Source: Shinella yambaruensis
GTDB taxonomy: Bacteria; Pseudomonadota; Alphaproteobacteria; Rhizobiales; Rhizobiaceae
Length of the DNA: 64,000 bases
NCBI RefSeq assembly: GCF_022899355.1
Contig: NZ_JALJCK010000005.1
Span: forward strand, 62,001 to 126,000
Reading direction: 5' to 3'
Part shown: piece after piece, positions 4,739 through 37,514 of the stretch
Layout: each line of letters starts with the position of its first letter
Numbering within the stretch: the first letter of the stretch is position 1
The notes under the pieces: model-generated
The model's input: only the letters and a program-made list of their open reading frames with translations
Databases searched by the model: none
What the model was told of the DNA's origin: nothing
Program-made: the position numbers and the translations under genes

Positions 4739-6401
4739 GCAAGCGAACTCCAAAACGGAATGCAGTAATCACGCCGATGCCGATCAGGACGAGATTGATG
4801 ACGGCGAGCGCCGCCACCTGGTTCATCGAGCCCGTCTCCGAAAGCGTGACAAGAAGAGCGCCGATCACCTCGGTGCCGGATGTGAGCAGATAGACGCCGG
4901 TCGAGTATTCCCGTTCGAACATCAGGAACACGAGAAGCCAGCTCGTCAGCAGCCCCACACGGATGAGGGGCAGGGTCACGTCGAACATCGCCCGCCGGCG
5001 GGTCGCGCCGATGCTGACCGCCGCCTCCTCCAACTCCTTGCCGACCTGGACCAGCGAACTCGAAACCAGACGCGCACCATAGGGAAGCCAGACCACCGTA
5101 TAGGCCAGCCAGATGCTGAAAAGCGTCGCGCGAAGCGGTGCCAGGGGGCTGATGAATAGGAACACCCACAGGAAGGCGAGGCCGGCCAGAAGCCCCGGAA
5201 TGGCGCGCGGAACCAGGATCAGATAATCCATTAGATGGGTCCACTCGTCATTGCGCCGGTGCGCGGCAAAGGCGATCGCTGCATAACAAGCGACGGCAAG
5301 GCCGCCGCCGACCACGCCAATGAGCACGCTGTTGCGAATGCCGCGAACCAGCACGGGCTCGCTGAAGACGAAGCGGAACTGGTCCAGCGTCAGCACGTCG
5401 AAGAGATTGACGTTCGGCCCCCAATACGTGACGAATGCGCGCAGCGTGATGCCGGAGATCGGCACGATGACGGTCACGGCAAGCCAGGCGAGCGCCAGCA
5501 TCAGGGCGGGATAACGCCAGGCGCCAAGCGTGAGCGGCCTCTGGCGCGCCGCCTTGCCCCGCACCGTCACGAACTTGTCCGCCACCTTAAGATAATGCCG
5601 CTGCAGCATCACCAGCGGGAAGGTCAGGAGGACGATCAGCACGGCGACCGTCGCCATGAGGTGATAGGCGGGGACGCCGAGGCGGGTGGTCAGCTTATAG
5701 AGATAGACCGCGAGCATGCTGAAATTGTTCGAGTTGCCCAGAACGAGGGCGAGGCCGAACATCTCCACGCCGGCAAAGAAGACCAGCACCGCGCTGAACA
5801 TCAGGGCCGGCGCCACGAGAGGCAGGTTGACGTCGAGGGCGACCCGCAACGGGCCGGCGCCGGTGGTCCGCGCGGCCTCCTCGACATCCGAGCCCACGCC
5901 CTTGAGGGCGGTCGAGACATACAGGAAGACGTAGGGAACATGGCTCAGCCCGCCGATCACGGCAATGGCGACCGGCGAATAGATGTTCCAGGGCGCGACG
6001 CCGAAGAGCTGCTTCGACCAGACGGTGTAAAAGCCCACCGGGCCGGCCGCGACGACGTAGCCGAGCGCGAGAACCACGGGGGACACGAGAATAGGCACGA
6101 GGATGAGCGGCTCCAGAACGCCGCGTCCCGGTATGTCGGTGCGAGCGACGAGGAGCGCCAGCAAGGCGCCCAGCGGCAGGGCCACCACCAGCATGCCCGT
6201 CGCCACGAGCAGCGAGTTCCGCAAGGCAACCCAGAACTCCGGATCCCTCAGGACGAAGCCGAAGGCGTCGAGCGTGAAATGCGAATCCGCATGGAAGAAC
6301 GGGCCGGACAGAACACTCTGGTAGAAGAGAATTCCAAGGGGCAGACAGACAGCGCCTGCCGTCACCAGGATGACCACCGCCCGCGATGGGTTCATTACCA
6401 T
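4731..6401 (-). CDS. ABC transporter permease, fused double-domain (FbpB-like)
   Basis: 556-residue inner-membrane permease made of two tandem binding-protein-dependent permease domains with about twelve membrane spans. Coupling-loop (EAA) motifs appear twice: VEEAARTTGAGPLRVALDV in the N half and LEEAAVSIGATRRRAMFDV in the C half. This fused arrangement is that of FbpB/ThiP/AfuB permeases. The start is one of two close ATGs (6401 or 6395) with AGGA 8 nt upstream; the long upstream extension of the frame is unlikely. It follows the SBP gene and overlaps the ATPase gene by 8 nt, so the three form one importer. Confidence 0.9.
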   Translation of the reverse strand: MVMNPSRAVVILVTAGAVCLPLGILFYQSVLSGPFFHADSHFTLDAFGFVLRDPEFWVALRNSLLVATGMLVVALPLGALLALLVARTDIPGRGVLEPLILVPILVSPVVLALGYVVAAGPVGFYTVWSKQLFGVAPWNIYSPVAIAVIGGLSHVPYVFLYVSTALKGVGSDVEEAARTTGAGPLRVALDVNLPLVAPALMFSAVLVFFAGVEMFGLALVLGNSNNFSMLAVYLYKLTTRLGVPAYHLMATVAVLIVLLTFPLVMLQRHYLKVADKFVTVRGKAARQRPLTLGAWRYPALMLALAWLAVTVIVPISGITLRAFVTYWGPNVNLFDVLTLDQFRFVFSEPVLVRGIRNSVLIGVVGGGLAVACYAAIAFAAHRRNDEWTHLMDYLILVPRAIPGLLAGLAFLWVFLFISPLAPLRATLFSIWLAYTVVWLPYGARLVSSSLVQVGKELEEAAVSIGATRRRAMFDVTLPLIRVGLLTSWLLVFLMFEREYSTGVYLLTSGTEVIGALLVTLSETGSMNQVAALAVINLVLIGIGVITAFRFGVRLHG

Positions 6402-25948: not shown

Positions 25949-27163
25949 TCAACCGTGGCGAAGGGTGTGCCGCTCCGCGCGGGTTTCCGCGTTCGTCACC
26001 GCCTGATCGAGGCTCGCGAGCAATCCCTCGATATCGGCCCACAGCTCGTATTCGTCTTCCAGTCCAATGCTCAGGCGCAAGATCACGTCCGGGCCGGACC
26101 AGCTTGTGACGCTGCGAAAACCATCGATCGACATAGGTGCGGCGAGACTACGTGTCCCGCCCCAGGAGGCACCGATTGCAAACACCTTCAGCGTGTCGAG
26201 CGCCGCGGGGATATGCGCGATCGCCTCATTCTTGAACAGGATGCTGAAAACGCCGCTCGATCCGAGGAAGTCGCGCTTCCAAAGGGCATGGTCCGGCGAG
26301 GTTTCGAGCGCGGGGTGCAGAACATGCTCCACGAGCGGGTGCAGCTCGATCTTGCGCGCGAATTCGAGTGCCACCCGCTCCGAATGGCGTAGCCGAACGC
26401 CGAAGGTTTCAAAGCCGCGAAGGACAAGTGACGCATCATCGGGCGAGACACCAATGCCCATTCGCCCGATCAGGGACCGGATCGGTTTGAGAAGCGCCGT
26501 ATCCTTGATCGTGATCGATCCCATCAAGACATCAGAATGGCCGGAGACGAACTTGGTCAGCGCTTCCGTCACGATGTCGGCGCCATGCTCCAGGGGCTTG
26601 AAATTGAGCGGTGTCGCCCAGGTATTGTCGACGCCGACAAGCGCACCATGTTCATGGGCGATCCGGGCGATCGCCGGCAAATCGAGAATTTCCATCGTGG
26701 AGGAACCCGGACTTTCGCACCAGACGATCTTGGTCATCGCGCGCATCTTCGCACGAACGTCATCAGGGGATTTCGGATCGAAGAAGCCCACTTCGACACC
26801 CAGTCGGCGCAGATCTGTAGTGGTGAAGTCGCGCATGGGCGGATAGGCCGTATCGGCAATCAAAACATGGTCACCGGCCGACAAGAACGGCAGCACGGCA
26901 AATGCGTTTGCCGCCTGGCCGGAAGGCGCAAGAAACGTCCAGGTGCCTCCTTCCAGGCTCGTCAGCTTCGCCTCGAGGGTGCGCGTCGTCGGCGTGCCAT
27001 AGAGGCCGTAGGAATACCCCTCATGCCCGCGCTCGCCGCGAGAGGCGTAGGCGGCGGCATCCTCGAACACGATCGTCGAGGCGCGGTGCACCCCCACACC
27101 AAGCGGCGCAAAACCGTCCATCGATACGCTCGGCGTAAGAACGCATTGGGTGAGATCGTTCAT
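25949..27163 (-). CDS. Cystathionine beta-lyase-type PLP enzyme (Cys/Met metabolism family)
   Basis: 404-residue fold-type I PLP enzyme. SYGLYGTPTTRTLEAKLTSL, LAPSGQAANAFAVLPFLSAG, the cofactor-contacting VDNTWATPLNFKPLEHGADI, and the Schiff-base lysine in EALTKFVSGHSDVLMG mark the MetC/MetB family. It probably performs beta- or gamma-elimination on a sulfur amino acid or cystathionine-like thioether. It is the first gene of a four-gene operon (PLP lyase, M20, aspartase-like, MFS) and is divergent from a LysR regulator across 113 bp. Confidence 0.87.
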   Translation of the reverse strand: MNDLTQCVLTPSVSMDGFAPLGVGVHRASTIVFEDAAAYASRGERGHEGYSYGLYGTPTTRTLEAKLTSLEGGTWTFLAPSGQAANAFAVLPFLSAGDHVLIADTAYPPMRDFTTTDLRRLGVEVGFFDPKSPDDVRAKMRAMTKIVWCESPGSSTMEILDLPAIARIAHEHGALVGVDNTWATPLNFKPLEHGADIVTEALTKFVSGHSDVLMGSITIKDTALLKPIRSLIGRMGIGVSPDDASLVLRGFETFGVRLRHSERVALEFARKIELHPLVEHVLHPALETSPDHALWKRDFLGSSGVFSILFKNEAIAHIPAALDTLKVFAIGASWGGTRSLAAPMSIDGFRSVTSWSGPDVILRLSIGLEDEYELWADIEGLLASLDQAVTNAETRAERHTLRHG

Positions 27164-27276
27164 GGATGAACCTTTCTGAAGTCGCTCGGAACGCGCTCGG
27201 AAATCAATTCCGGAACGACACGCTTTGCGCTACTGCTATTCGCTGAAGTTATTGCTGGTCTGTAGAGGTGGCTACG

Positions 27277-28152
27277 ATGAACCTGAGGCAGGTCGAAGTG
27301 TTTCGTATGGTGATGACGAACGGCACGACCGCGCGGGCCGCGGATGTGTTGCACGTCTCGCAGCCCGCGGTCAGCAAGATGATCCAGGAACTGGAGCGGT
27401 CGCTCGGGTTCGATCTCTTCCAGCGGATCAAGGGGCGGTTGCAGCCGACGCAGGAAGGCCAGTTGTTCTTCCGCGAAGTGGAGCAGGCTTTTCTTGGTCT
27501 GACCCATCTTCGTGGTGCGGCGGCACGCATTCGGGATTACGGCTCCGGTGAGCTCAGAATTGCCTGCCTCTCGGCCTTGTCGACGAATGTGTTGCCCCGC
27601 GCCCTGCACGCCTTCATGCAAAGCAATCCCAATGTCGGCATCACCTTCCAGGCACGGATGTCCTCGAACGTCCGGGACCTTGTCGCATCCGGGCAATTCG
27701 ATCTCGGGATCGTGGCCGACGAGATCGATCGCACGGGCGTGGAGGTCGAGGAGTTCGCGCAGTTCCGGGTAGCGCTTGCCATGCCACAGGGACATCCGCT
27801 CGAAGCTCTGGATGTCATACATCCCAGCGACCTCGACGGACAAAAATTCATAGCGCTTGCTCCGGAGGATACGACCCGGCGCGAGGCGGAAGCCGTATTT
27901 GAGCGTGCTGGCGTCACGGTCCGCCCGGTAATTGAGACGCCCTACTCGACGACGATCTGCGCGATGGTTGCCGCAGGCATTGGTATTGGTCTCGTCAATC
28001 CTCTCACCGCGGAACCCTACGTGGACCACGGGCTGGTCCTGCGACCGTTCGAACCGGCACTGCATTTCCGCACCCTGCTGATTACGCCACCCAATCGCCT
28101 TCCTTCCAGAAACCTCGAGGAGTTCATAAAACAATTGCGCGGTGCAATCTGA
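27277..28152 (+). CDS. LysR-family transcriptional regulator
   Basis: 291-residue LysR regulator. MNLRQVEVFRMVMTNGTTAR, AADVLHVSQPAVSKMIQELE and RSLGFDLFQRIKGRLQPTQE form the winged helix; the C-terminal periplasmic-binding-like domain carries AGIGIGLVNPLTAEPYVD. GAGG lies 8 nt before the ATG. It is transcribed away from the PLP-lyase operon and towards the amino-acid ABC genes, so it probably controls both. The inducer is probably the imported amino acid or peptide. Confidence 0.88.
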   Translation: MNLRQVEVFRMVMTNGTTARAADVLHVSQPAVSKMIQELERSLGFDLFQRIKGRLQPTQEGQLFFREVEQAFLGLTHLRGAAARIRDYGSGELRIACLSALSTNVLPRALHAFMQSNPNVGITFQARMSSNVRDLVASGQFDLGIVADEIDRTGVEVEEFAQFRVALAMPQGHPLEALDVIHPSDLDGQKFIALAPEDTTRREAEAVFERAGVTVRPVIETPYSTTICAMVAAGIGIGLVNPLTAEPYVDHGLVLRPFEPALHFRTLLITPPNRLPSRNLEEFIKQLRGAI

Positions 28153-28182
28153 GCCCATTTCGCGTCTCTCTGACATGGCCGC

Positions 28183-28959
28183 TCACAGAACCTTGGATAG
28201 GAATGCGGCAGTCCGCGGATTCTGCGGACTGGCAAGCATGGTTCGTGGATGGCCTTCCTCGACCACCTGTCCCTGGTCCATGAACACGAGGTGATTGCCG
28301 ACCTCGCGGGCAAAGCCGATCTCGTGGGTTACGACAACCATTGTGATGCCGCTCATCGCCAGATCCTTGATCACGTCGAGGACCTCACCGACGAGTTCCG
28401 GATCAAGTGCAGAGGTCGGTTCGTCGAACAGCATAACCTCCGGCTCCATGGCGAGCGCCCGCGCGATCGCCACGCGCTGCTGCTGACCACCGGAAAGCTG
28501 TCCCGGATAGCGGCCGCCGAAACCATCCAGCCCCACCCTGTCCAGGAGCTCGTTGGCCTTTTTGCGCGCCTGCTCTTTCGGCCAACCTTTGACATGGGCC
28601 GGCCCTTCCATGACATTTTCGAGTGCCGTCATGTGCGGGAACAGATGAAAACGTTGAAAGACCATCCCTGTCATGCGCCGCTGGGCAGCGATTTGGCCGG
28701 ACGAAAGAGGATGAAACCGTCCGTCCCTCTCGACGTAACCCTGCAACTCGCCCTTCAGGAGGACACGACCGGCCGAGATGCTTTCAAGCTGGTTGATGCA
28801 CCGGAGCAGCGTCGACTTGCCAGAGCCCGAAGGGCCGATCGCAACGCACACTTCGCCCCGGCGCACGCGAAGATCGACGCCTTTGAGCGCATGGACCGGG
28901 CCGTAGAACTTATGGATGTTCTGCATCTCGACGCAGAATTCGGAAATATTTGCGTTCAT
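28183..28959 (-). CDS. Polar amino-acid ABC transporter ATP-binding protein (GlnQ/HisP type)
   Basis: 258-residue ATPase: Walker [20 protein letters not shown]-loop [18 protein letters not shown], signature [15 protein letters not shown], Walker [22 protein letters not shown]-loop [13 protein letters not shown]. These are the exact spellings of the polar amino-acid group. A start at MNANISEF has GGAG 7 nt upstream, 4 nt after the permease stop. Works with the permease and SBP directly upstream. Confidence 0.92.
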
Positions 28960-28963
28960 GGCT

Positions 28964-29875
28964 CTACTCCGCCCGTGTCGGATGAACGGAAACGCCCTTG
29001 CCAAAGTGACGTTCGAGAAAATGCTGGCCGACCATCAGCAGGCTGGTGATCGCAAGATACCAGGTACCCGCGACCAGCAGGAGCGGGATCGGCAGGTACA
29101 GCCTGTTGGAAATCGCGTTGGTCGCGAAGGTCAGGTCCAGCGTGAACGGTACCGCGAGCACGAGCGACGTCATCTTCAGCATGCCGATCGTTTCATTGCC
29201 TGTCGGCGGGATGATCACGCGCATCGCCTGCGGCATCAGGATCCGCATCCAGATTTTTCCGGGTTTCATCCCGAGTGCCTGGGCGGCCTCGGCCTGCCCT
29301 CTGTCGAGGGAGTTGAAGCCCGCGCGGAAGATTTCCGTGAGATAGGCGGACTCGTTGAAACCAAGGCCGAGGATCGCGGCCATGGCCGGCGTGAGGATGT
29401 ACTTCGTCTCGACACTGACGATCTCTGGCCCGAACGGAATTGCAAGGCTGAGATTGGGGAAGAGAACGGCAAAGAGGCCCCAGAATAGCAGCTGGGTGTA
29501 GATCGGTGTGCCCCGGAAGAACCACACCCAACCATAGGCGATGCCGCGAAGAACAGGGTTATCGCTGTCTCGCATGACAACGAGCAGGCCAGCGACAACG
29601 ATCGCTACGGTCATGGCAACAACCGTCAGCAGAAGTGTCCATCCCACGCCCCGAATGACCTGCGGCGAAAAAAGGTACGTCAAGTACACATCCCAATGGA
29701 AGTTGGGATTGACCGAAACCGCCTGGCCGATCTGCAGGGCGAGAATGGCAAAGACCGCGACCGCGAGCCAGCGGCCGGGATGACGGCGCGGAACCACGAT
29801 GTTTCGCGTGATCGCTGGCTTCTCTACGGCGACCGGCTTGAAGCCGGTCGCAATGTTTTCAACATCGGAAGCCAT
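28964..29875 (-). CDS. Amino-acid ABC transporter permease
   Basis: 303-residue HisM/GlnP-type permease. Its N-terminal tail of about 35 residues is followed by five or six spans and the coupling motif [39 protein letters not shown] is the usual opening of the transmembrane domain. Only one permease gene is present, so it probably forms a homodimer. It lies between the SBP and ATPase genes with 4-nt gaps on both sides, one tight operon. Confidence 0.9.
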
Positions 29876-29879
29876 GAGC

Positions 29880-30776
29880 TCAGATCTTGACTTCAGGGTT
29901 CACGAGCGCCTTGTCGACGATAACGGAGCCGACGCCCCAGGTGTCGAGCAGGGCCTTGTAGGTGCCGTCTGCAATCAGGGAATTGATGGTGTCTGCAATG
30001 AGTTGCGTCAGTTCCATGTCTGCCTTTGCAACGGCGATCCCGTTCGGACCGTGCTTGCTCAGCGCGCCGCCGGCCGGCTTGAGAGTTTCAAAGGCTCCGC
30101 TCGACTGTTTGGCAGCATAACCGATGCCGGCCTCACCAGAGACCGTTGCGTCCGCGCCGCCCGCAGCGACGCGGGTCAGCGCTTCAGGCTGCTTGGAGAA
30201 TGGCAAAATCTCGATTTCGGCTTTGCCAGCCTGCTTGCAAAGATCATTTTCGGCGATGACTGCCTTTTCGTGGTAGCTGCCGGACTGGATGGCAATCTTG
30301 CGGCCGCAAATATCGGCTGGGTCGAACTTAGTCGGGTTGCCGGCCTTGACGGCCCACATGCTGCCCGTGTCGGCATAACTGACGAAATTGACCGCTTTCA
30401 TACGCTCGTTCGTGATCGAAAAAGCAGAAACGCCGATGTCGAACTTGGTTCCGAGAGCGGGCAGAATGGCCTCGAAGGCCGAGGTCTGAAAGTCGATCTT
30501 GACGCCGAGCTTCTTGCCGATCGCGTTGGCAATATCGACGTCGATGCCTTCCGGCGTCTGCCCATCCTTCTCGCTCAGGAATTCCCAGGGTGCATAGGCG
30601 GTGTCCGACCCTATGGTCAGGACGCCGGCCGCCTTGATTTTTTCGGGCAAACGGGAGGCCAAGACCTCCTCGACCTTGATCGCCGAGGTGTCGAAACTCT
30701 GAGCAAAGCTTTGACCGCTCAAGGCAGTCAAAGCGAAGGCGGTGACAATTGAAACATGAGTCAGGATCTTGATCAT
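29880..30776 (-). CDS. Amino-acid ABC transporter substrate-binding protein
   Basis: 298-residue family-3 binding protein. A Sec signal peptide (MIKILTHVSIVTAFALTALS ... GQSFAQ) is followed by GVLTIGSDTAYAPWEFLSEK, DGQTPEGIDVDIANAIGKKL, FDIGVSAFSITNERMKAV and QSGSYHEKAV, the standard SBP_bac_3 core. GGGGAA precedes ATG 30776. It heads the importer operon. Two acidic or aromatic residues in the pocket would decide charge preference but cannot be read reliably without a model. Substrate presumably the compound degraded by the neighbouring M20/PLP/aspartase-like enzymes. Confidence 0.9.
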   Translation of the reverse strand: MIKILTHVSIVTAFALTALSGQSFAQSFDTSAIKVEEVLASRLPEKIKAAGVLTIGSDTAYAPWEFLSEKDGQTPEGIDVDIANAIGKKLGVKIDFQTSAFEAILPALGTKFDIGVSAFSITNERMKAVNFVSYADTGSMWAVKAGNPTKFDPADICGRKIAIQSGSYHEKAVIAENDLCKQAGKAEIEILPFSKQPEALTRVAAGGADATVSGEAGIGYAAKQSSGAFETLKPAGGALSKHGPNGIAVAKADMELTQLIADTINSLIADGTYKALLDTWGVGSVIVDKALVNPEVKI

Positions 30777-30941: not shown

Positions 30942-30969
30942 TTGACTTGCGCTGACTGTTGGCTACGGT
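30942..30969 (+). promoter_or_regulatory. Sigma70-type promoter for the cobalamin riboswitch RNA
   Basis: TTGACT at 30942-30947 and TACGGT at 30964-30969 are separated by 16 nt. The predicted start (about 30975) falls right at the P1 stem of the riboswitch, which supports the assignment. Confidence 0.5.
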
Positions 30970-30972
30970 GTC

Positions 30973-31172
30973 TTCGATGGTTCCTGACATGCCAAGCGAC
31001 GTCAGGTGAAAAGGGAACACGGTGAGGACTACCCATCAGGGGCCGAGACCGTGACTGCCCCCGCAACTGTGAGCGGCGAGCAACCTCCAAAGACCACTGG
31101 TGAACCTCATTCGGGGCGCTGGGAAGGTGGAGGACGCGACGACCCGCAAGTCAGGAGACCTGCCATCACGAA
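30973..31172 (+). ncRNA. Cobalamin (B12) riboswitch
   Basis: All class I cobalamin-riboswitch landmarks occur in order. GTGAAAAGGGAA lies at 31006-31017, then ACACGGTG, the B12-box core CCCGCAACTGTGAGC around 31059-31073, CCACTGG at 31094-31100, GGGAAGG at 31121-31127, and GACCCGCAAGTCAGGAGACC ending near 31160. P1 can form between TTCGATGG (30973-30980) and CCATCACGAA (31163-31172). A short ACCGG/CCGGT hairpin (31182-31200) lies just before the AGGAG ribosome site of the DUF1636 gene. No U-run terminator is seen, so control is probably of translation initiation. It should repress the downstream metal-binding protein/transporter operon when adenosylcobalamin is plentiful. Confidence 0.95.
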
Positions 31173-31211
31173 TGAAACCGAACCGGGCGGGGAGTCCGGT
31201 CAGGAGCAGTG

Positions 31212-31649
31212 ATGGCGAAAGCATCTTCCCGGCCGGTGGCGACACCTGCCTATTGCGTGGTTCAATCCGCGCCGCATCAGATCCTTGTTTGCAAAGGCTG
31301 CAAACGGACGGAGCGTTACCGCCGGCCCGGCGGAACCATGATCGCGAACCTGCGCGCGTCCATTGCCGAAACGAGCCTCTCCGACCAGTTCGAGGTTACG
31401 GGAACCGCCTGCATGGGCGGCTGTGACCAGCCGTGCTCGGTCGCCGTTCGTGCTCCCGAAAAGGCGAGCTGGCTCTTCTTCAACCTCGATCCAATCGAGG
31501 ACGTGGCCGACATCGTGCGCTTTGCGCAGATCTATGCCCAGCTCGATGACGGCTGGTGCCGCTCCGTCGATCGACCCGGCAAGCTCGCAAGCAACATCCT
31601 GGCGCGCCTGCCGGCGATGATCTATCGCCCGGCGCATTCCACGTCATGA
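31212..31649 (+). CDS. DUF1636 predicted metal-binding protein
   Basis: 145-residue thioredoxin/2Fe-2S-ferredoxin-like small protein. Cysteines occur as ILVCKGCKRTERYRRPGGT and GTACMGGCDQPCSVAVR, the DUF1636 pattern of a predicted metal-binding protein. SD AGGAG lies 5 nt before ATG 31212 (a GTG directly precedes it). It is the first gene under the cobalamin riboswitch, which ties it to cobalt or corrinoid metabolism. A metal chaperone or redox role is inferred. Confidence 0.88.
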   Translation: MAKASSRPVATPAYCVVQSAPHQILVCKGCKRTERYRRPGGTMIANLRASIAETSLSDQFEVTGTACMGGCDQPCSVAVRAPEKASWLFFNLDPIEDVADIVRFAQIYAQLDDGWCRSVDRPGKLASNILARLPAMIYRPAHSTS

Positions 31650-31689
31650 CCCACGCAGCAACCAGCCCCTGCTATCGAAGGACCCCACG

Positions 31690-32367
31690 ATGGAACGTGT
31701 TGCCCCGACGACTGCCACCGCCATGTCAGAGCATTGGAATGCTCGGGCATGGAAGTTTGACGCCGCGGCGTCCCATCGGCGCGACGCCTCGTCATGGCGG
31801 GCAGTGTTTGAAGCCGCACTCGGCAGCAGGCCTCAGGACGTCGTCGATCTAGGGTGCGGGACCGGAGCGTGCGCGCTCCTCGCGGCGAGCCTCGGCCATC
31901 GTGTCACGGCCGTCGATGGCTCTCTCGAAATGCTTTCTCATGGGAGAACCGCTGCTGCCGAGGCCGGCCTTGAGATCGACTTCATCCACTCGACCATGGA
32001 CGAAGCGAAGCTTCCGGCGTCGAGTACCGATATCGTCACGATACGCAATGTCCTGTGGACGCTCGAAAACCCGCCGGCCGCACTGGCCCTGGCGCGCGAA
32101 ATCCTCCGGCCAGGCGGCAAACTTCTGCTGTCGGATGGGCTTTGGTATCGCCAACGCGTCAACAACAGTCGCGAAATCTTCGGGACAAACCTGCCCTTCT
32201 ATAACGGTCTGACCGAGACCGATGCGCGTGCGCTGATCGCTGGCGCGGGCTTCCGCTCCGTTGAAAGCTGGCGCCACCTGATGCCCGGCGACCCTTACGG
32301 CTCCGTTTATGACGATCCGGATACCCCGATCACCTTCTTCGTTCTCACCGCAATCGCTCCGGAGTGA
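31690..32367 (+). CDS. Class I SAM-dependent methyltransferase
   Basis: 225-residue methyltransferase. Motif I DVVDLGCGTGACALLAAS (about residues 50-67), acidic VTAVDGSLEML and post-motif TRNVLWTLENPPAALALARE-like region fit the Methyltransf_11/UbiE-like fold. The methyl acceptor is unknown. It lies in a cobalamin-riboswitch operon between DUF1636 and a nickel/peptide-type SBP, where a methylated metal chelator or corrinoid fragment is conceivable. It is not one of the recognisable Cob precorrin methyltransferases. Confidence 0.85.
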   Translation: MERVAPTTATAMSEHWNARAWKFDAAASHRRDASSWRAVFEAALGSRPQDVVDLGCGTGACALLAASLGHRVTAVDGSLEMLSHGRTAAAEAGLEIDFIHSTMDEAKLPASSTDIVTIRNVLWTLENPPAALALAREILRPGGKLLLSDGLWYRQRVNNSREIFGTNLPFYNGLTETDARALIAGAGFRSVESWRHLMPGDPYGSVYDDPDTPITFFVLTAIAPE

Positions 32368-32372
32368 TTTTC

Positions 32373-33905
32373 ATGTCTCGCAATCTTTGGTTTTCCGCTT
32401 TCGTAACGGCGATGCTCGTCTCCCCCTTTTCCGTCTTTGCGCAGGAGGAGCTTCGCGTCGTGGAGCCGTTCCAGCTGCAACGGCTCGATACCCAGACCGG
32501 GGGGTTCCAGCTTCGCGCCAACGGCGTCACGGAGACGCTGGTACAGACGAATCCGGAGGCGGCGGTGCTGCCGGCGCTGGCCGAGCGCTGGGAGACATCG
32601 GCCGATGGCCTGAAATGGACTTTCTTCCTGCGCCCCAACGTCACCTTCCACGACGGAACCGCGATGACGCCGGAGGCCGTCGCGGCATCCTTCAAGGCGC
32701 TCCTTCCGACCGGCAACCTTATCAAGAACGCCAAGGTCAAGGATGTCAGCGCCGGTGACGGGACCGTGACATTCACGCTTGAGCAACCGTTCGCGCCATT
32801 CCTTGCCTACCTCCTGGACCCCGCCGTTCCGGTTCTTGCGCCCTCGTCGTTCGCTTCAAGCGGAGAACTCACGGCTATCGTGGCGACAGGACCGTACAGA
32901 ATCGAAAAAGCGGAACTCCCGCAGGGCCTCGATCTGGTTCGGCATGACAGCTATTGGGGTGACGTCGCGAAAATCGAGCGTGTCCGCGTGGATGGCATAC
33001 CGAACCCTGAGACCCGCGTGAACATCGCGCTGGCAGGTGAAGGCGATCTGGTGCTGGAAATCCCGACGACGGCCGTCTCGCGTATCGACCGCTCCGGAGA
33101 GACGCACATCGTCCGTGCACCGGTGCCTCGGGTCGTCATGATGCTGGTCAATGTCAAAAAACCGCAGTTCGCCGATGTCGAGATTCGCCGCGCGCTCAGC
33201 TTTGCCGTCGACAGACAAGCAATCGCCCGGACGATCATGGGCAACGAGGACCTTGCCGCGAACCAGTATTTCCCGCCCGCGATGAAGGGATGGCATTTTG
33301 AGGATTTCAAGCCGCAAACGCTCAACGTCGCCGAGGCGAACCGTATCCTCGACGAGCTCGGCTGGAAACCGGGGGCAGACGGGATCCGTGAAAAGGATGG
33401 CACGCGCTTCGCCGGCATGATGCGGACATTCCCGCAACGCGCATACCTGCCCGTGATTGCCGAGGCACTCCAGGCCCAGTTAAAGGCGATCGGCTTTGAC
33501 CTCTCCATCCAGGTCGGGGAATCCAGCCTTATCCCGGAAGCACAGAACGATGGGACGCTCGAGTTGGGACTAGGCATCCGCACCATGATCTACCAGGTGC
33601 CGGATCCGGTGGCGCGCCTCACCAGCGACTTTGCGACCGACGAACCCAGCACAGATGCGACCGGAGCCACCGGATGGAAGAGCGAGGAGATGCGGGCAGC
33701 CGTTGCCGCATACAATCTCACGACCGATCCGGAGGCTCGCCTGCCGCTTCAGCGCGAGATGGCTGAAATCCTGCAGAACGAACTTCCCGTCATCCCGATC
33801 ACGTTCACCGATGAGAAATACGCCGTCTCGGAGCGGCTGGAAGGCTTTGTTGCCGACCCGGTGATGCAGACGCGACCGCTCAATCATTTGTCGTTCAAGG
33901 ACTGA
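32373..33905 (+). CDS. ABC transporter substrate-binding protein, family 5 (NikA/DppA-like)
   Basis: 510-residue periplasmic binding protein. The Sec signal MSRNLWFSAFVTAMLVSPFS ends near VFAQEE. GVTETLVQTNPEAAVLPALA and ERWETSADGLKWTFFLRPNV, with FHDGTAMTPEAVAASF, are hallmarks of SBP_bac_5. No lipobox cysteine. It starts 5 nt after the methyltransferase stop, with CGGAG 8 nt before the ATG. Family members bind peptides, nickel, opine-type metallophores or haem; riboswitch control points to cobalt, a cobalt complex or a corrinoid precursor. Confidence 0.88.
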   Translation: MSRNLWFSAFVTAMLVSPFSVFAQEELRVVEPFQLQRLDTQTGGFQLRANGVTETLVQTNPEAAVLPALAERWETSADGLKWTFFLRPNVTFHDGTAMTPEAVAASFKALLPTGNLIKNAKVKDVSAGDGTVTFTLEQPFAPFLAYLLDPAVPVLAPSSFASSGELTAIVATGPYRIEKAELPQGLDLVRHDSYWGDVAKIERVRVDGIPNPETRVNIALAGEGDLVLEIPTTAVSRIDRSGETHIVRAPVPRVVMMLVNVKKPQFADVEIRRALSFAVDRQAIARTIMGNEDLAANQYFPPAMKGWHFEDFKPQTLNVAEANRILDELGWKPGADGIREKDGTRFAGMMRTFPQRAYLPVIAEALQAQLKAIGFDLSIQVGESSLIPEAQNDGTLELGLGIRTMIYQVPDPVARLTSDFATDEPSTDATGATGWKSEEMRAAVAAYNLTTDPEARLPLQREMAEILQNELPVIPITFTDEKYAVSERLEGFVADPVMQTRPLNHLSFKD

Positions 33906-33908
33906 TCC

Positions 33909-34883
33909 ATGCAGCGCGCGGTTCGTCACGCCGTTCCGCGCGCTGTTTTGCGCCGGGTTCTTGAGGCTCTCTCGGTCGCGTTGATCCTCGCGACGATCTG
34001 CTTTGCGCTTCTTCACGCCATTCCCGGCGACATGGCGCTGAGGATCGCCGTCGGCCAGTTGGGAACGGAAAATATGTCTCCAGCGGCGGTCGAGCAGATC
34101 CGCGACGCCGAGATGCTGTCTCGCCCTCTCCTCGTGCAGTATTTCGACTGGCTGAAGGCGGTCGCCACCGGTGATATCGGGCGCTCCTTCGTTTCCGGCC
34201 GGCCCGTGGCCGAGGAACTTCGGCAGGCTGGCGGATACACCCTGCGGCTCGCAGTTATCGCCTGGCTGCTCTCCTATGCATTGGCTTTGCCGCTTGGTAT
34301 CGCGGCCGGTCTCAAGCCCGATGGCGCGATCGATCGGGCAACGGCATTCGCCGCGGCGGCCTTTTCATCGTTGCCGACCTTCCTGATCGGGATCGCACTC
34401 ATCTCGATCTTCGTACTCGCACTCAACCTGCTTCCGCCAGCAGGGTATCGACGACCTGAGCATCTCGTCCTTCCAGCCATCACGCTGGCCCTGGGGCTGA
34501 TGGCGCCGTCTATGCGGGTCATACGCGATGCTGTCGCTGAAGTGCAGGCCTCAGCCTACATGACCTATGCTCATGTGAGAGGGTTTGGCAAAGCCAAAGC
34601 CTTCATACGGCATGGCCTGCGAAACGCGAGCGTTCCGATCGTCACCTTCGCGGCGCTTCAGTTTGCCTATCTCATGGACGGCTTTTTTGTCGTGGAGACC
34701 TTGTTCAATTTTCCGGGGATCGGGAACGCGATGGTATCGGCGCTGCTTGCACGCGATGTCCCAGTCGTCATGGGTTGTGCGCTTCTGATCGGCACCACCT
34801 TCGCGGCAATCAGCCTTGCCGCTGACCTCATTTGCATGTGGATGGATCCCCGGCTTGTGGATGAGGGCCATGGCAGCCGTTGA
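33909..34883 (+). CDS. ABC transporter permease (NikB/DppB-like)
   Basis: 324-residue permease with about six spans. The N-terminal domain motif FALLHAIPGDMA, the YFDWLKAVATGDIGRSFVSG signature, and the ETLFNFPGIGNAMVSAL C-terminal motif are diagnostic of the DppB/NikB subunit. It starts 3 nt after the SBP stop and overlaps the next permease by 14 nt. Confidence 0.9.
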   Translation: MQRAVRHAVPRAVLRRVLEALSVALILATICFALLHAIPGDMALRIAVGQLGTENMSPAAVEQIRDAEMLSRPLLVQYFDWLKAVATGDIGRSFVSGRPVAEELRQAGGYTLRLAVIAWLLSYALALPLGIAAGLKPDGAIDRATAFAAAAFSSLPTFLIGIALISIFVLALNLLPPAGYRRPEHLVLPAITLALGLMAPSMRVIRDAVAEVQASAYMTYAHVRGFGKAKAFIRHGLRNASVPIVTFAALQFAYLMDGFFVVETLFNFPGIGNAMVSALLARDVPVVMGCALLIGTTFAAISLAADLICMWMDPRLVDEGHGSR

Positions 34884-35658
34884 TCAGCGCCTTCTTTGGA
34901 CGATCGGGGCGGCTACGGCGGTGACGATTGTTACGATCGCCGTGATCATCGGCCGCGATCCTCTCCATCAGGACCTCGCGGTTGCCCTCGCGCCGCCATC
35001 CATGCTGTTTCCGCTCGGAACCGACCATCTGGGTCGCGACGTGTTCGCTCGCCTCTTCCATGCACTACCCCGCTCTATCGGCATCGCGACGTCAGCGATG
35101 GCAGCGGCGGTGACCATCGGGACCTTGGTCGGGCTAGCCGCCGCGGTCTCCAACCGCCTTGTCGATGCAGCGATGATGCGCCTCACCGACCTCGCGCTTG
35201 CGTTCCCTGGACTACTTCTCGCAATGGTACTGGCAGGGCTGATGGGTGGCGGAATGCTGCCGGTTCTCGTCGGTATTGCGCTGGGGCAGTGGCCCCAGTT
35301 CGCCAGGATGACGCGGAGTGTCGCAGCCGCCGCCATGACCGAGGCGCATGTCGAGGCGTCGCGTCTGGCTGGTCTCGCAGGATGGCGGATCCTCTTGCGA
35401 CAGGTCATGCCGCGGGTTCTGATCCATACAGCGTCACTTGCGGCGCTGGGCGTCGGTGGCGCGGTCTTGACGATCTCTTCACTGGGCTTCCTGGGACTTG
35501 GGTTGCAACCGCCCACGCCGGAATGGGGCGCGATGATCACGGAGCTCCTGCCCTATATGGACGTCGCGCCAGTACAGATCGCAGCCCCCTGTGTCGCGCT
35601 GTTCGTGACCGTGCTCACCTGCATGATCGCCGGGCGACGACTGGCCGAGGCAATATGA
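34870..35658 (+). CDS. ABC transporter permease (NikC/DppC-like)
   Basis: 262-residue permease. LFPLGTDHLGRDVFARLFHA is the conserved DppC/NikC motif. The coupling segment VEASRLAGLAGWRILLRQVM and SSLGFLGLGLQPPTPEWGAM are also typical. ATG 34870 lies inside the end of the preceding permease gene; ATG 34861 is nearly as likely. Its stop overlaps the ATPase start (ATGA). It forms the heterodimeric channel with the NikB-like protein. Confidence 0.9.
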   Translation: MAAVDQRLLWTIGAATAVTIVTIAVIIGRDPLHQDLAVALAPPSMLFPLGTDHLGRDVFARLFHALPRSIGIATSAMAAAVTIGTLVGLAAAVSNRLVDAAMMRLTDLALAFPGLLLAMVLAGLMGGGMLPVLVGIALGQWPQFARMTRSVAAAAMTEAHVEASRLAGLAGWRILLRQVMPRVLIHTASLAALGVGGAVLTISSLGFLGLGLQPPTPEWGAMITELLPYMDVAPVQIAAPCVALFVTVLTCMIAGRRLAEAI

Positions 35659-37058
35659 TGCGGGCGATATTACGAGTTTGTGATCTCTCGGTACGGGATC
35701 AAAAAGGCACGCTGCTGGTCGAAGCCGTCAGCTTCGCAATTCCGCAGGCAGGCGCCGTTGTTCTGATAGGCGAAACAGGTAGCGGCAAGAGCCTCGTCGC
35801 GCAGGCGGTGCTCGGCCTGGTCCCGGAGGGACTGAGCGTGCAAGGACGCATCGAGTTCGATGGACGTACCGTCGAACTATCGGATCGGGCGGCTTTGCGA
35901 CAGTATTGGGCAAACCACCTGGCGCTTGTGCCGCAAGAACCGCGAGCAGCACTCGATCCGACAATGCGCGTGCTGCCGCAGATCACTGGTTTGGCAAAAC
36001 AGGCACATGCGCATCAGGCGATGACGAGCCTGAGCCTCCGTGCCTCGGTTGGGCGGCAGTATCCGTTCATGTTGTCGGGCGGCATGGCTCAACGTGTTCT
36101 GGTTGCCGGGGCATTGACGACGCAGGCGCCTGTCGTCATCGCCGACGAGCCGACCAAAGGCCTGGATGATGATCGGGTCGAAGAGACTGTCTCACGCATC
36201 CGACAACTCCTCGACCATGGCCGGGCGGTGTTGGCAATCACACACGACATACGCGTCGCGCGTGGCCTTGGCGGCCATATAGGTGTGATGCGCGCCGGCC
36301 GGATGTTGGAACAGGGGCCTGTGGAAGAGGTGATACTGGCACCGCGCCACGCCTATACCCGGGCGTGGCTTGATGCAGATCCCGATCGGTGGCCCCGACG
36401 CACGGCGCAACGCATCGCCGAGCCGGTGCTCCACGCCCAAAAGCTCACCTATGCGGTCGGTGATCGCAGATTATTCCAGGACTTAAGTCTGACGCTCCTC
36501 CGGGGGAGCATCACAGCCATAACGGGTCCGAGCGGTTGCGGCAAAACGATGTTGGGCAATGTGCTCCTCGGCCTCGCGCGACCGCACGCAGGCACGGTGC
36601 GATGGTGCGACGGCACTGATCCGCACCGTGTCCGTCGACCTGCCTTACGCGCGCGTTTTCAGAAGTTACATCAGGATCCAGCTTCGGCGTTCATGCCGGG
36701 GCGTGTGTTGAGACGTCAGCTTGAGGACCTCAAACCTGTGCTACCGTTCGGATGCCTGGCACGCGACCTGCCACCCCTTCTCGATCGGTTGGCGGTTCAA
36801 CCATCGCTTCTCGAACGGCGACCGGACGAGGTTTCCGGTGGAGAACTGCAACGCATCGCAATCGCTCGCATCCTCCTGTTCAAACCGTATTGCCTGGTCG
36901 CCGATGAACCGACATCGCGGCTTGATCCACTGGTGCAGCGCGAAGTGACAGAGCTTCTGCGAACCCTGGTTGACGAGCAGGATATGAGCCTTGTTCTTAC
37001 AAGCCACGATAAACGATTGGTCCGGGCGGTTGCTCACGACGTCATTGATCTCCAGTAA
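35655..37058 (+). CDS. Fused dual-ATPase of nickel/peptide-type ABC importer (NikD-NikE/DppD-DppF fusion)
   Basis: 467-residue protein with two complete ABC cassettes in one chain. The first has GETGSGKSLVAQAVLGLVPE, LSGGMAQRVLVAGAL and VVIADEPTKGLDDD. The second has GPSGCGKTMLGNVLLGLARP, VSGGELQRIAIARIL and CLVADEPTSRLDP. Normally these are two separate genes. Each cassette is compact, and the C-terminal oligopeptide-binding tail usual after DppD/DppF is missing or very short. ATG overlaps the stop of the permease gene. Completes the riboswitch-controlled importer. Confidence 0.9.
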   Translation: MMRAILRVCDLSVRDQKGTLLVEAVSFAIPQAGAVVLIGETGSGKSLVAQAVLGLVPEGLSVQGRIEFDGRTVELSDRAALRQYWANHLALVPQEPRAALDPTMRVLPQITGLAKQAHAHQAMTSLSLRASVGRQYPFMLSGGMAQRVLVAGALTTQAPVVIADEPTKGLDDDRVEETVSRIRQLLDHGRAVLAITHDIRVARGLGGHIGVMRAGRMLEQGPVEEVILAPRHAYTRAWLDADPDRWPRRTAQRIAEPVLHAQKLTYAVGDRRLFQDLSLTLLRGSITAITGPSGCGKTMLGNVLLGLARPHAGTVRWCDGTDPHRVRRPALRARFQKLHQDPASAFMPGRVLRRQLEDLKPVLPFGCLARDLPPLLDRLAVQPSLLERRPDEVSGGELQRIAIARILLFKPYCLVADEPTSRLDPLVQREVTELLRTLVDEQDMSLVLTSHDKRLVRAVAHDVIDLQ

Positions 37059-37231: not shown

Positions 37232-37477
37232 CTAAGCGGCCGCCTGCGCCAGGTGTAAACTCCGATACCGGCCGTTCTTGCGGGCGATCAGCTCGGCATG
37301 GCTGCCGCTCTCGACGATGCGGCCGTCGTCGACGACGAGGATGCGGTCGGCGTTCGCGATGGTGGCCAGGCGATGGGCGATGACCAGCGTGGTGCGGCCG
37401 GCCGAGAGCTCGGCGAGCGACTGCTGGATCGCCCGCTCCGTCTGCGTATCGAGCGCCGAGGTCGCCTCGTCGAGGAC
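37232..37477 (-). pseudogene. 3' remnant of an ABC exporter (MsbA-like permease/ATPase)
   Basis: Only the last 80 or so residues remain, from the Walker B aspartate onward: [20 protein letters not shown], then [18 protein letters not shown] and [20 protein letters not shown]. This is the C-terminal ATPase end of a fused exporter (MsbA or HlyB class). Everything upstream, including Walker A and the membrane domain, is missing. The break coincides with the edge of a tRNA 3'-end fragment, so an integration or deletion event probably cut the gene. No start codon or ribosome site accompanies the fragment. Confidence 0.75.
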
Positions 37478-37486
37478 GTGGGGGTC

Positions 37487-37514
37487 GAGTGTTCGAACCA
37501 CTCCACTCCAACCA
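37487..37514 (+). other. tRNA 3'-end fragment (T-arm plus acceptor 3' strand), candidate attachment site
   Basis: GAGTG-TTCGAAC-CACTC forms a canonical 5-bp T stem with a 7-nt T loop (T54 T55 C56, A58, G53-C61 pair). It is followed by CACTCCA as the acceptor 3' strand, A as discriminator, and CCA. No D or anticodon arm is found upstream, where the ABC exporter remnant begins instead. The ending resembles tRNA-Pro 3' ends (C-ACTCCG-ACCA) with one change. Integrative elements often use tRNA 3' ends, so this may be one att end of a lost or flanking element. Confidence 0.6.

Follow-up and report, generated by a model that had tools for sequence, protein, structure and literature searches.

A cobalamin riboswitch-led importer operon in Shinella yambaruensis with two helper genes that recur beside cobalt genes

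The operon and its riboswitch

In a 64,000-nucleotide stretch of the genome of Shinella yambaruensis (assembly GCF_022899355.1, contig NZ_JALJCK010000005.1, positions 62,001 to 126,000; hereafter the window), a cobalamin (B12) riboswitch is followed by six genes on the same strand that extend to position 37058. They encode a DUF1636 protein, an S-adenosylmethionine (SAM)-dependent methyltransferase, a periplasmic solute-binding protein (SBP) of the NikA/DppA type, two permeases, and a single chain with two ATP-binding cassette (ABC) ATPase domains. The first three intergenic gaps are short (40, 5, and 3 bases) and the genes at the final two junctions overlap, so that the six genes read as one operon. 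We propose, with a probability of about 0.7, that it encodes a B12-repressed importer for cobalt, which is probably taken up in chelated form. Cobalt is scarce and is needed by bacteria that make B12, and few cobalt importers have been tested so far.

The riboswitch aptamer lies at positions 30961 to 31181 of the forward strand, where it matches RF00174 over model positions 1 to 189, the full length (124.5 bits; gathering score, 31.5; E-value, 7.9e−31). It is the sole Rfam match in the 64-kb window that reaches its gathering threshold, and it ranks sixth among the 11 cobalamin riboswitches of the host genome (6.87 Mb, 34 contigs). The expression platform is present as well. CCCCGC in the L5 loop (31057 to 31069, forward strand) pairs with the loop GCGGGG (L13) of the P13 hairpin (31182 to 31200, forward strand), the other half of the kissing loop. 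A Shine-Dalgarno-like AGGAG follows directly 3′ of P13 (31202 to 31206, forward strand), which would put translation under control. The stem of P13 reads ACCGG/CCGGT in the window and ACCAG/CTGGT in Rhizobium sp. Root482 (locus L065), both sides being altered and the pairing kept. The exact GCGGGG loop is present in 11 of the 13 leaders compared; the Pseudoroseomonas leader (L120) keeps the loop pairing although both sides differ, and in L205 the loop reads ACGGGG, with no compensating change on the other side. With a complete aptamer, L5-L13 pairing, and two-sided changes in relatives, the regulator of the operon looks alive, as far as its sequence can tell. A preliminary description of this DNA had called the riboswitch complete, which is borne out, and had credited it with a promoter of its own, which is not. 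A possible promoter (TTGACT, 16 nucleotides, TACGGT; 30942 to 30969, forward strand) can be picked out by eye, but a consensus promoter scan found none at 30942, and the 2 sites that it reports between 30700 and 37400 are no more than shuffled sequences yield (mean, 1.5).

The product of the DUF1636 gene (31212 to 31649, forward strand like the whole operon; GTG at 31209 is an alternative start) matches PF07845 with 92.8 bits (cutoff, 31.6; E-value, 2.5e−26). Its cysteines 27, 30, 67, 71, and 75 form a CxxC and a CxxxCxxxC motif, and "ORF378" (PDB 9jn8) is a homologue; the family is related to thioredoxin-like [2Fe-2S] ferredoxins, according to the accessible text of PMC4520260. The class I SAM-dependent methyltransferase (31690 to 32367) matches PF08241 and PF13649 (Methyltransf_11/25 domain; 70 bits and E-value of 2.5e−19 for PF08241), with motif I, DLGCGTG, at residue 53; its assignment as the corrinoid protein-associated CpaM was rejected at 64 bits on NF043040 (cutoff, 180). 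The NikA/CntA-like SBP (32373 to 33905; alternative start GTG at 32364) has a signal peptide at about residues 1 to 23 and an SBP_bac_5 domain (PF00496; E-value, 6.2e−75). The permeases (PF00528) are of the NikB/OppB type (33909 to 34883; best NCBIfam match, Opp2B, 256 bits, below the cutoff of 350) and the NikC/OppC type (34870 to 35658; Opp2C, 216 bits, below the cutoff of 300). The 467-residue ATPase chain (35655 to 37058) has two ABC_tran stretches, each domain with a Walker A, a signature, and a Walker B motif, DEPT occurring twice. These domain matches confirm the gene content proposed earlier. At the downstream border of the operon, a short frame on the reverse strand (37232 to 37501) is similar to the C terminus of an exporter-type ABC ATPase and is likely a gene remnant.

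The two helper genes in other genomes

A PF07845 search gave 49 matches in 45 of 121 genomes, and 30 loci were fetched. A cobalamin riboswitch lies within 1.5 kb in 21 of the 30 DUF1636 loci, the window included, according to a sequence pattern, and in 20 of the 29 others according to cmscan. The pattern is stricter than the far too loose one that it replaced: over the window plus the initial set of 23 loci, it recovers 18 of the 19 RF00174 matches with no extras, the one missed being the BluB leader in L062. As a control, it was found in none of 20 other loci with NikA-like SBPs (86 kb). CobW and CobN are also present in 18 of the 21 riboswitch-associated loci, usually in the order riboswitch-DUF1636-CobW-CobN (genes at the loci were named by similarity to the cob and cbt genes of the host, which were in turn named from sequence). 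CobW is described as a cobalt chaperone for cobaltochelatase in the text available from PMC7689651. The order is instead riboswitch-DUF1636-CbtL-CbtJ in L220 and L225 and likewise in L049. These loci give DUF1636, a family of unknown function, a definite setting: behind B12 riboswitches, either next to CobW-CobN or ahead of cobalt importers. Most of seven aligned members keep both cysteine motifs, and the L049 protein is without one. Single loci depart from the usual arrangement: L209 has an extra gene between riboswitch and DUF1636, and L226 has a second, weaker cobalamin riboswitch (759 to 972; 54 bits), divergent from the DUF1636-CobW-CobN leader and on the side of a CobU-like gene.

The methyltransferase leads to cobalt genes by another route. 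With the window protein as the query, 17 of 29 other loci contain CbtK/CbtL of a BtuF-type importer, 9 contain a distant homologue without these genes, and 3 are seemingly unrelated. Because 15 of the 17 Cbt-linked loci belong to the host genus, while the 9 others come from eight other genera and one same-genus genome, distant homologues are, by genus, more often away from Cbt genes. The nearest kin outside NikA-like operons (59% identical in genome G056, L205; 53% in Paracoccus denitrificans, L206) are each the last gene of a riboswitch-CbtJKL-cupredoxin operon. In Sinorhizobium meliloti 1021 (L207) the order is riboswitch-CbtJ-CbtK-CbtL-methyltransferase, with the homologue (33% identical to the window protein) directly behind cbtL, and the accessible text of PMC7689651 reports that cbtJKL knockouts of S. 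meliloti require 1 to 10 μM cobalt for growth. Our comparison thereby highlights a gene in an already studied cobalt locus. The host's own Cbt operon (L060) has a homologue too, after the cupredoxin gene. There are two methyltransferase subfamilies, and each occurs with both importer types: the window type with a NikA-like SBP in the window operon and with CbtJKL in L205 and L206, the S. meliloti type before a NikA-like SBP in L066 and L068 and behind CbtJKL in L207 and L060. The nine non-Cbt loci (L190 to L193 and L195 to L199) adjoin another periplasmic-binding-protein gene (PF01497 in both of the two that were scanned), and the riboswitch pattern occurs in none of these short loci. The methyltransferase family goes with metal-chelate-type importers generally, its nearest members with cobalt importers, and it may serve other metal-chelate importers too.

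In the literature searched (few subscription papers, no supplements), the text available to us describes neither DUF1636 nor the window-type methyltransferase as a cobalt gene, nor does it describe the DUF1636-methyltransferase-SBP block, although earlier surveys may already name some of the genes. The text examined on DUF1636/COG5469 contains no link to B12.

A helper that stays while the pump changes is also seen with a different protein. On host contig C4 (102386 to 107484; L057, 7387 to 12485), a riboswitch leads a unit that encodes CbiX fused to a [2Fe-2S] ferredoxin, another NikA-like SBP that is only distantly related, two permeases, and a methyltransferase from a subfamily other than that of the window protein. 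No ATPase gene was seen beside this unit or beside the like set in G027 (L261), and the unit may borrow an ATPase, perhaps that of the window operon. The CbiX-ferredoxin fusion occurs in 5 of 120 relatives (60 to 64% identical; L259 to L263), each time with a riboswitch in front. It stands with a C4-like NikA set in G027, which has no methyltransferase beside it either, with another SBP_bac_5 set in G010, G028, and G071, and with a BtuF-type importer in G048. Two of these loci have unusual frames: L259 has permease and ATPase in a single chain, and the SBP of L263 reads as two frames.

The importer family and its cargo

The identical six-gene order behind a riboswitch occurs on plasmid pSU277_4 (73.5 kb) of Sinorhizobium medicae SU277 and in Rhizobium sp. 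Root482 (L065), whose SBPs are 85% and 86% identical to that of the window. This recurrence speaks against a chance arrangement. Among 4166 plasmid records with a match, the SBP of pSU277_4 is the only one more than 60% identical. SBP matches with E-values below 1e−85 were found in 9 of 200 relatives' genomes (best, 43% identical) and in 1 of 20 other genomes of the same genus (G018, of the zinc-linked kind described below). The operon seems to be accessory DNA that moves horizontally. Next to it, in both the window (25949 to 30776) and L065 (10797 to 13528) but on opposite sides, lie genes for a Cys/Met pyridoxal phosphate lyase, a LysR regulator, and an amino-acid-type binding protein; this block is possibly a travelling companion of the operon in Shinella and Root482. 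A DMT exporter gene downstream of the S. medicae operon was rejected as a metallophore exporter, none being directly downstream in L065 or the window.

A single-sequence scan of the contigs of the genome collection with the SBP gave zero relatives. An alignment-based scan gave 260, of which the best 80 were kept, and the counts that follow describe this set, which is not a random sample. A fused ATPase is present in 75 of the 80 loci, judged by one frame with more than 200 bits against the window double ATPase; four of those that fail this proxy run off their contigs (L074, L109, L113, and L144), and L121 does not. We had considered the fusion a special feature of the window operon and rejected this, as it is a trait of the whole SBP family. 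Seven of the 80 loci have a riboswitch upstream of the SBP gene and in the same orientation, all confirmed by cmscan; riboswitches not in front of the SBP gene (L071, L075, L107, L109, and L126) were not counted.

In a quick tree of 94 SBPs, which has long branches (L120 and L048) and from which L047, L049, and L050 were dropped as duplicates of L067, L071, and L075, the window protein falls into a clade of six (with L012 and L065 to L068; SH-aLRT, 99), and all six are riboswitch led. Mesorhizobium zhangyense and Aureimonas fodinaquatilis, both in this clade, have the order riboswitch-methyltransferase-SBP-permeases-ATPase. The riboswitch label requires 3 changes on the tree against 9.7 after shuffling, and none of 500 shuffles was as low. 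Riboswitch-led members occupy three places, and the three changes may also be one gain and two losses. In L067, a Rhizobiaceae metagenome-assembled genome, a seeming decayed methyltransferase remnant can be made out by eye between riboswitch and SBP gene (about 5430 to 5960).

We name cobalt as the cargo mainly because of the company of DUF1636 (CobW-CobN) and the kin of the methyltransferase (beside CbtJKL); both helpers point to cobalt independently of the window importer. The importer type rests on family membership, and the context suggests the following course. When adenosylcobalamin falls, the riboswitch would leave the ribosome site of the first gene open. In the periplasm, the SBP would bind a complex of cobalt (the cargo is probably chelated metal, not free ions) and hand it to the permease pair, which the double ATPase would power. 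The cysteine-rich, thioredoxin-like [2Fe-2S]-type DUF1636 protein might receive or reduce the metal for cobaltochelatase. The methyltransferase would modify either the ligand brought in with the metal or a cobalt carrier in the cytoplasm, and this is the weakest step. As a more far-reaching and rather doubtful idea, several unrelated ABC importers in B12-switched cobalt-uptake cassettes of Alphaproteobacteria (NikA-like with fused ATPases, BtuF-like CbtJKL, and others) would share interchangeable parts, a [2Fe-2S] thioredoxin-like protein (DUF1636 or CbiX-ferredoxin) and a SAM methyltransferase, such that methylation of the ligand and a redox change of the metal jointly free cobalt from an imported chelate. 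We know of no release step for metal chelates that works by ligand methylation and metal redox change.

Two observations weigh against cobalt. Zinc-uptake genes (ZnuABC, Zur, COG0523, or allied genes) lie in 24 of the 80 family loci, and among 10 riboswitch-led SBP rows, 5 have neither helper, 3 have both, and 2 have the methyltransferase only. The operon could instead encode a zinc importer under B12 control: MetE is a zinc enzyme, and at low B12 the cell would switch to this type of methionine synthase and need more zinc. The host has a riboswitch-led metE gene (named from sequence). On the S. medicae plasmid, the operon has two riboswitch-led neighbours, one with a methionine synthase and DUF1852 and the other an nrdHIE unit. 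A hand-made pattern for Zur-box-like palindromes is suggestive in the same direction, with 1.22 hits per 10 kb in zinc-linked, 0.77 in unlabelled, and 0.35 in riboswitch-led loci. The absence of both helpers from half of the riboswitch-led relatives led us to rate cobalt slightly lower, and zinc higher, than we otherwise would. However, zinc genes are absent from all seven riboswitch-led loci in the set of 80, and the helpers, where present, both indicate cobalt; a zinc importer is thus unlikely, if worth keeping in mind. In three genomes, cobalt and zinc clusters are neighbours: an SBP operon of this family, either zinc-linked or without a label, has a separate riboswitch-led unit close by in G018 (L051, 55 to 265, which is contig C3, 474054 to 474264), G065 (L049/L071), and G119 (L050/L075). 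That unit includes DUF1636 in G018 and G065 and Cbt genes in G065 and G119.

Operons from two Methylobacteriaceae (L105, from Methylorubrum rhodesianum, and L081) bear on the form in which cobalt would be imported. Both have the order riboswitch-TonB receptor-SBP-permeases-ATPase. The receptor of L105 is of the siderophore type (TIGR01783, 351 bits against a cutoff of 223.5; 48 bits on the B12-receptor model), and that of L081 was assigned by its phmmer match to the L105 receptor. In L105, a BtuB-like unit (best match TIGR01779, 222 bits, below the cutoff of 600) is divergent from the SBP unit, and each stands behind its own riboswitch. This arrangement favors a chelate as the cargo and speaks against corrinoids, and the two operons directly qualify as candidates for a complete cobalt-chelate route. 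A 2021 review (PMC7689651), in its accessible text, states that no cobalt-specific outer-membrane receptor is confirmed and mentions, as a predicted route for cobalt, a TonB receptor that occurs with a riboswitch, a NiCoT gene, and CobW. Our literature search for cobalt metallophores found nothing.

The same loci bear on a second alternative, in which the SBP would take up cobinamide, a B12 fragment, or dimethylbenzimidazole. B12 riboswitches control B12 uptake too, and the host offers an example in its riboswitch-led BtuB-BtuFCD-like operon (named from sequence). Yet this operon would already give the host a separate route for B12 uptake, the siderophore-type receptor of L105 belongs to the SBP unit and the BtuB-like one to another, and DUF1636 accompanies cobalt-insertion genes. 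We consider corrinoid import improbable. Of the cargoes first suggested for the operon, cobalt, possibly as a chelate, is therefore retained, and a corrinoid precursor is disfavored.

The SBP itself resembles nickel-binding proteins. In a profile comparison (A2) with PDB sequences, nickel and metallophore binders come out on top (3t66, 243 bits; CntA, 235; NikA, 228 to 230; DppA, 182), in keeping with the cobalt reading. Among curated models, those for nickel score highest (NF045468, 223 bits; TIGR02294, 185 bits), as expected if the operon encoded a nickel importer of the NikABCDE type under incidental B12 control. However, both models are far under their cutoffs (600 and 393), and by hand count in the phmmer alignment, Arg97, Arg137, Tyr402, and His416 of NikA correspond to a gap, Ala, Pro, and Glu. 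The available text of PMC2667541 lists these four residues as the nickel-chelate ligand set of NikA and also calls the set disputed. The operon contains no nickel-enzyme gene, and we regard nickel as a very improbable cargo. Because the cutoffs of the curated NikA models are missed and the listed ligand residues are not kept, the SBP does not appear to be a NikA; from its sequence and predicted structure, it would work like a metal-complex binder of the NikA/DppA fold. The structural model (predicted local distance difference test score, 90) has TM-scores of 0.84 to 2noo (NikA-like) and 0.79 to 1dpe (DppA-like), and this fold comparison does not separate metal binders from peptide binders. An ordinary peptide importer that landed behind a riboswitch by chance would fit the fold shared with DppA/OppA, but it is the least credible reading, given that the profile puts metal binders above DppA, that riboswitch-led members occupy three places on the tree, and that the clade of the window is riboswitch led throughout.

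Three further riboswitch-led units of the host were noted in passing. A riboswitch leads a Rieske-type oxygenase gene with a reductase-like neighbor (L061, 4737 to 6279; glycine betaine demethylase-like, by eye), another leads a zinc-type alcohol/formaldehyde dehydrogenase gene (L063, 5627 to 7190), and the two units possibly form a B12-switched one-carbon branch. On contig C20 (L059, 5193 to 9606), a riboswitch precedes a 71-amino-acid frame and a MetH-like gene of 1264 codons, which is odd because MetH itself uses B12.

Comparison with known systems

The preliminary description had presented the operon as a little-described route, which is overstated. According to the text available from PMC2667541, NikABCDE-type transporters behind a B12 riboswitch were predicted in Clostridium tetani and Desulfitobacterium hafniense as exceptions to nickel specificity, and that from PMC9600662 describes a reporter with the aptamer of a Sporomusa ovata nikA riboswitch. 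The window operon shares with these systems a NikA-type importer behind a cobalamin riboswitch. Unlike the Firmicute systems, it is alphaproteobacterial, its ATPases are fused, DUF1636 and the methyltransferase are part of the operon, and the NikA ligand residues are not kept; our SBP tree is built without the NikA proteins of these three species. The SBP and permeases are of the types found in NikABCDE, whereas a single double-ATPase chain takes the place of the separate NikD and NikE.

CntABCDF of Staphylococcus aureus, which imports metal with staphylopine, also has an SBP_bac_5 protein, CntA, solved with staphylopine and cobalt (5yhe). The window SBP reaches only 147 of 800 bits on the CntA model (NF047575), and its ATPases are fused, whereas those of CntABCDF are separate chains. 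Opine dehydrogenase (PF10100) has no match in the host genome, and the control genomes gave none either. Family members beside Znu, Zur, or COG0523 genes (L051, L056, L072, L103, and others) share the four-gene importer, with SBPs 34 to 41% identical and a fused ATPase. In contrast to the window, the operons of L051, L056, L072, and L103 have no riboswitch in front and neither DUF1636 nor a methyltransferase inside, and zinc genes are nearby.

CbtJKL of S. meliloti resembles the window operon in its B12 riboswitch, its homologous methyltransferase, and its role in cobalt uptake, which we propose for the window operon as well. The importers are unlike: CbtJ is of the BtuF type (PF01497 in the host copy), the window SBP belongs to PF00496, and L207 has no DUF1636 match. 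A NikA-type importer under a B12 riboswitch was thus known before; what our comparison adds is that helper genes are swapped between unrelated importers.

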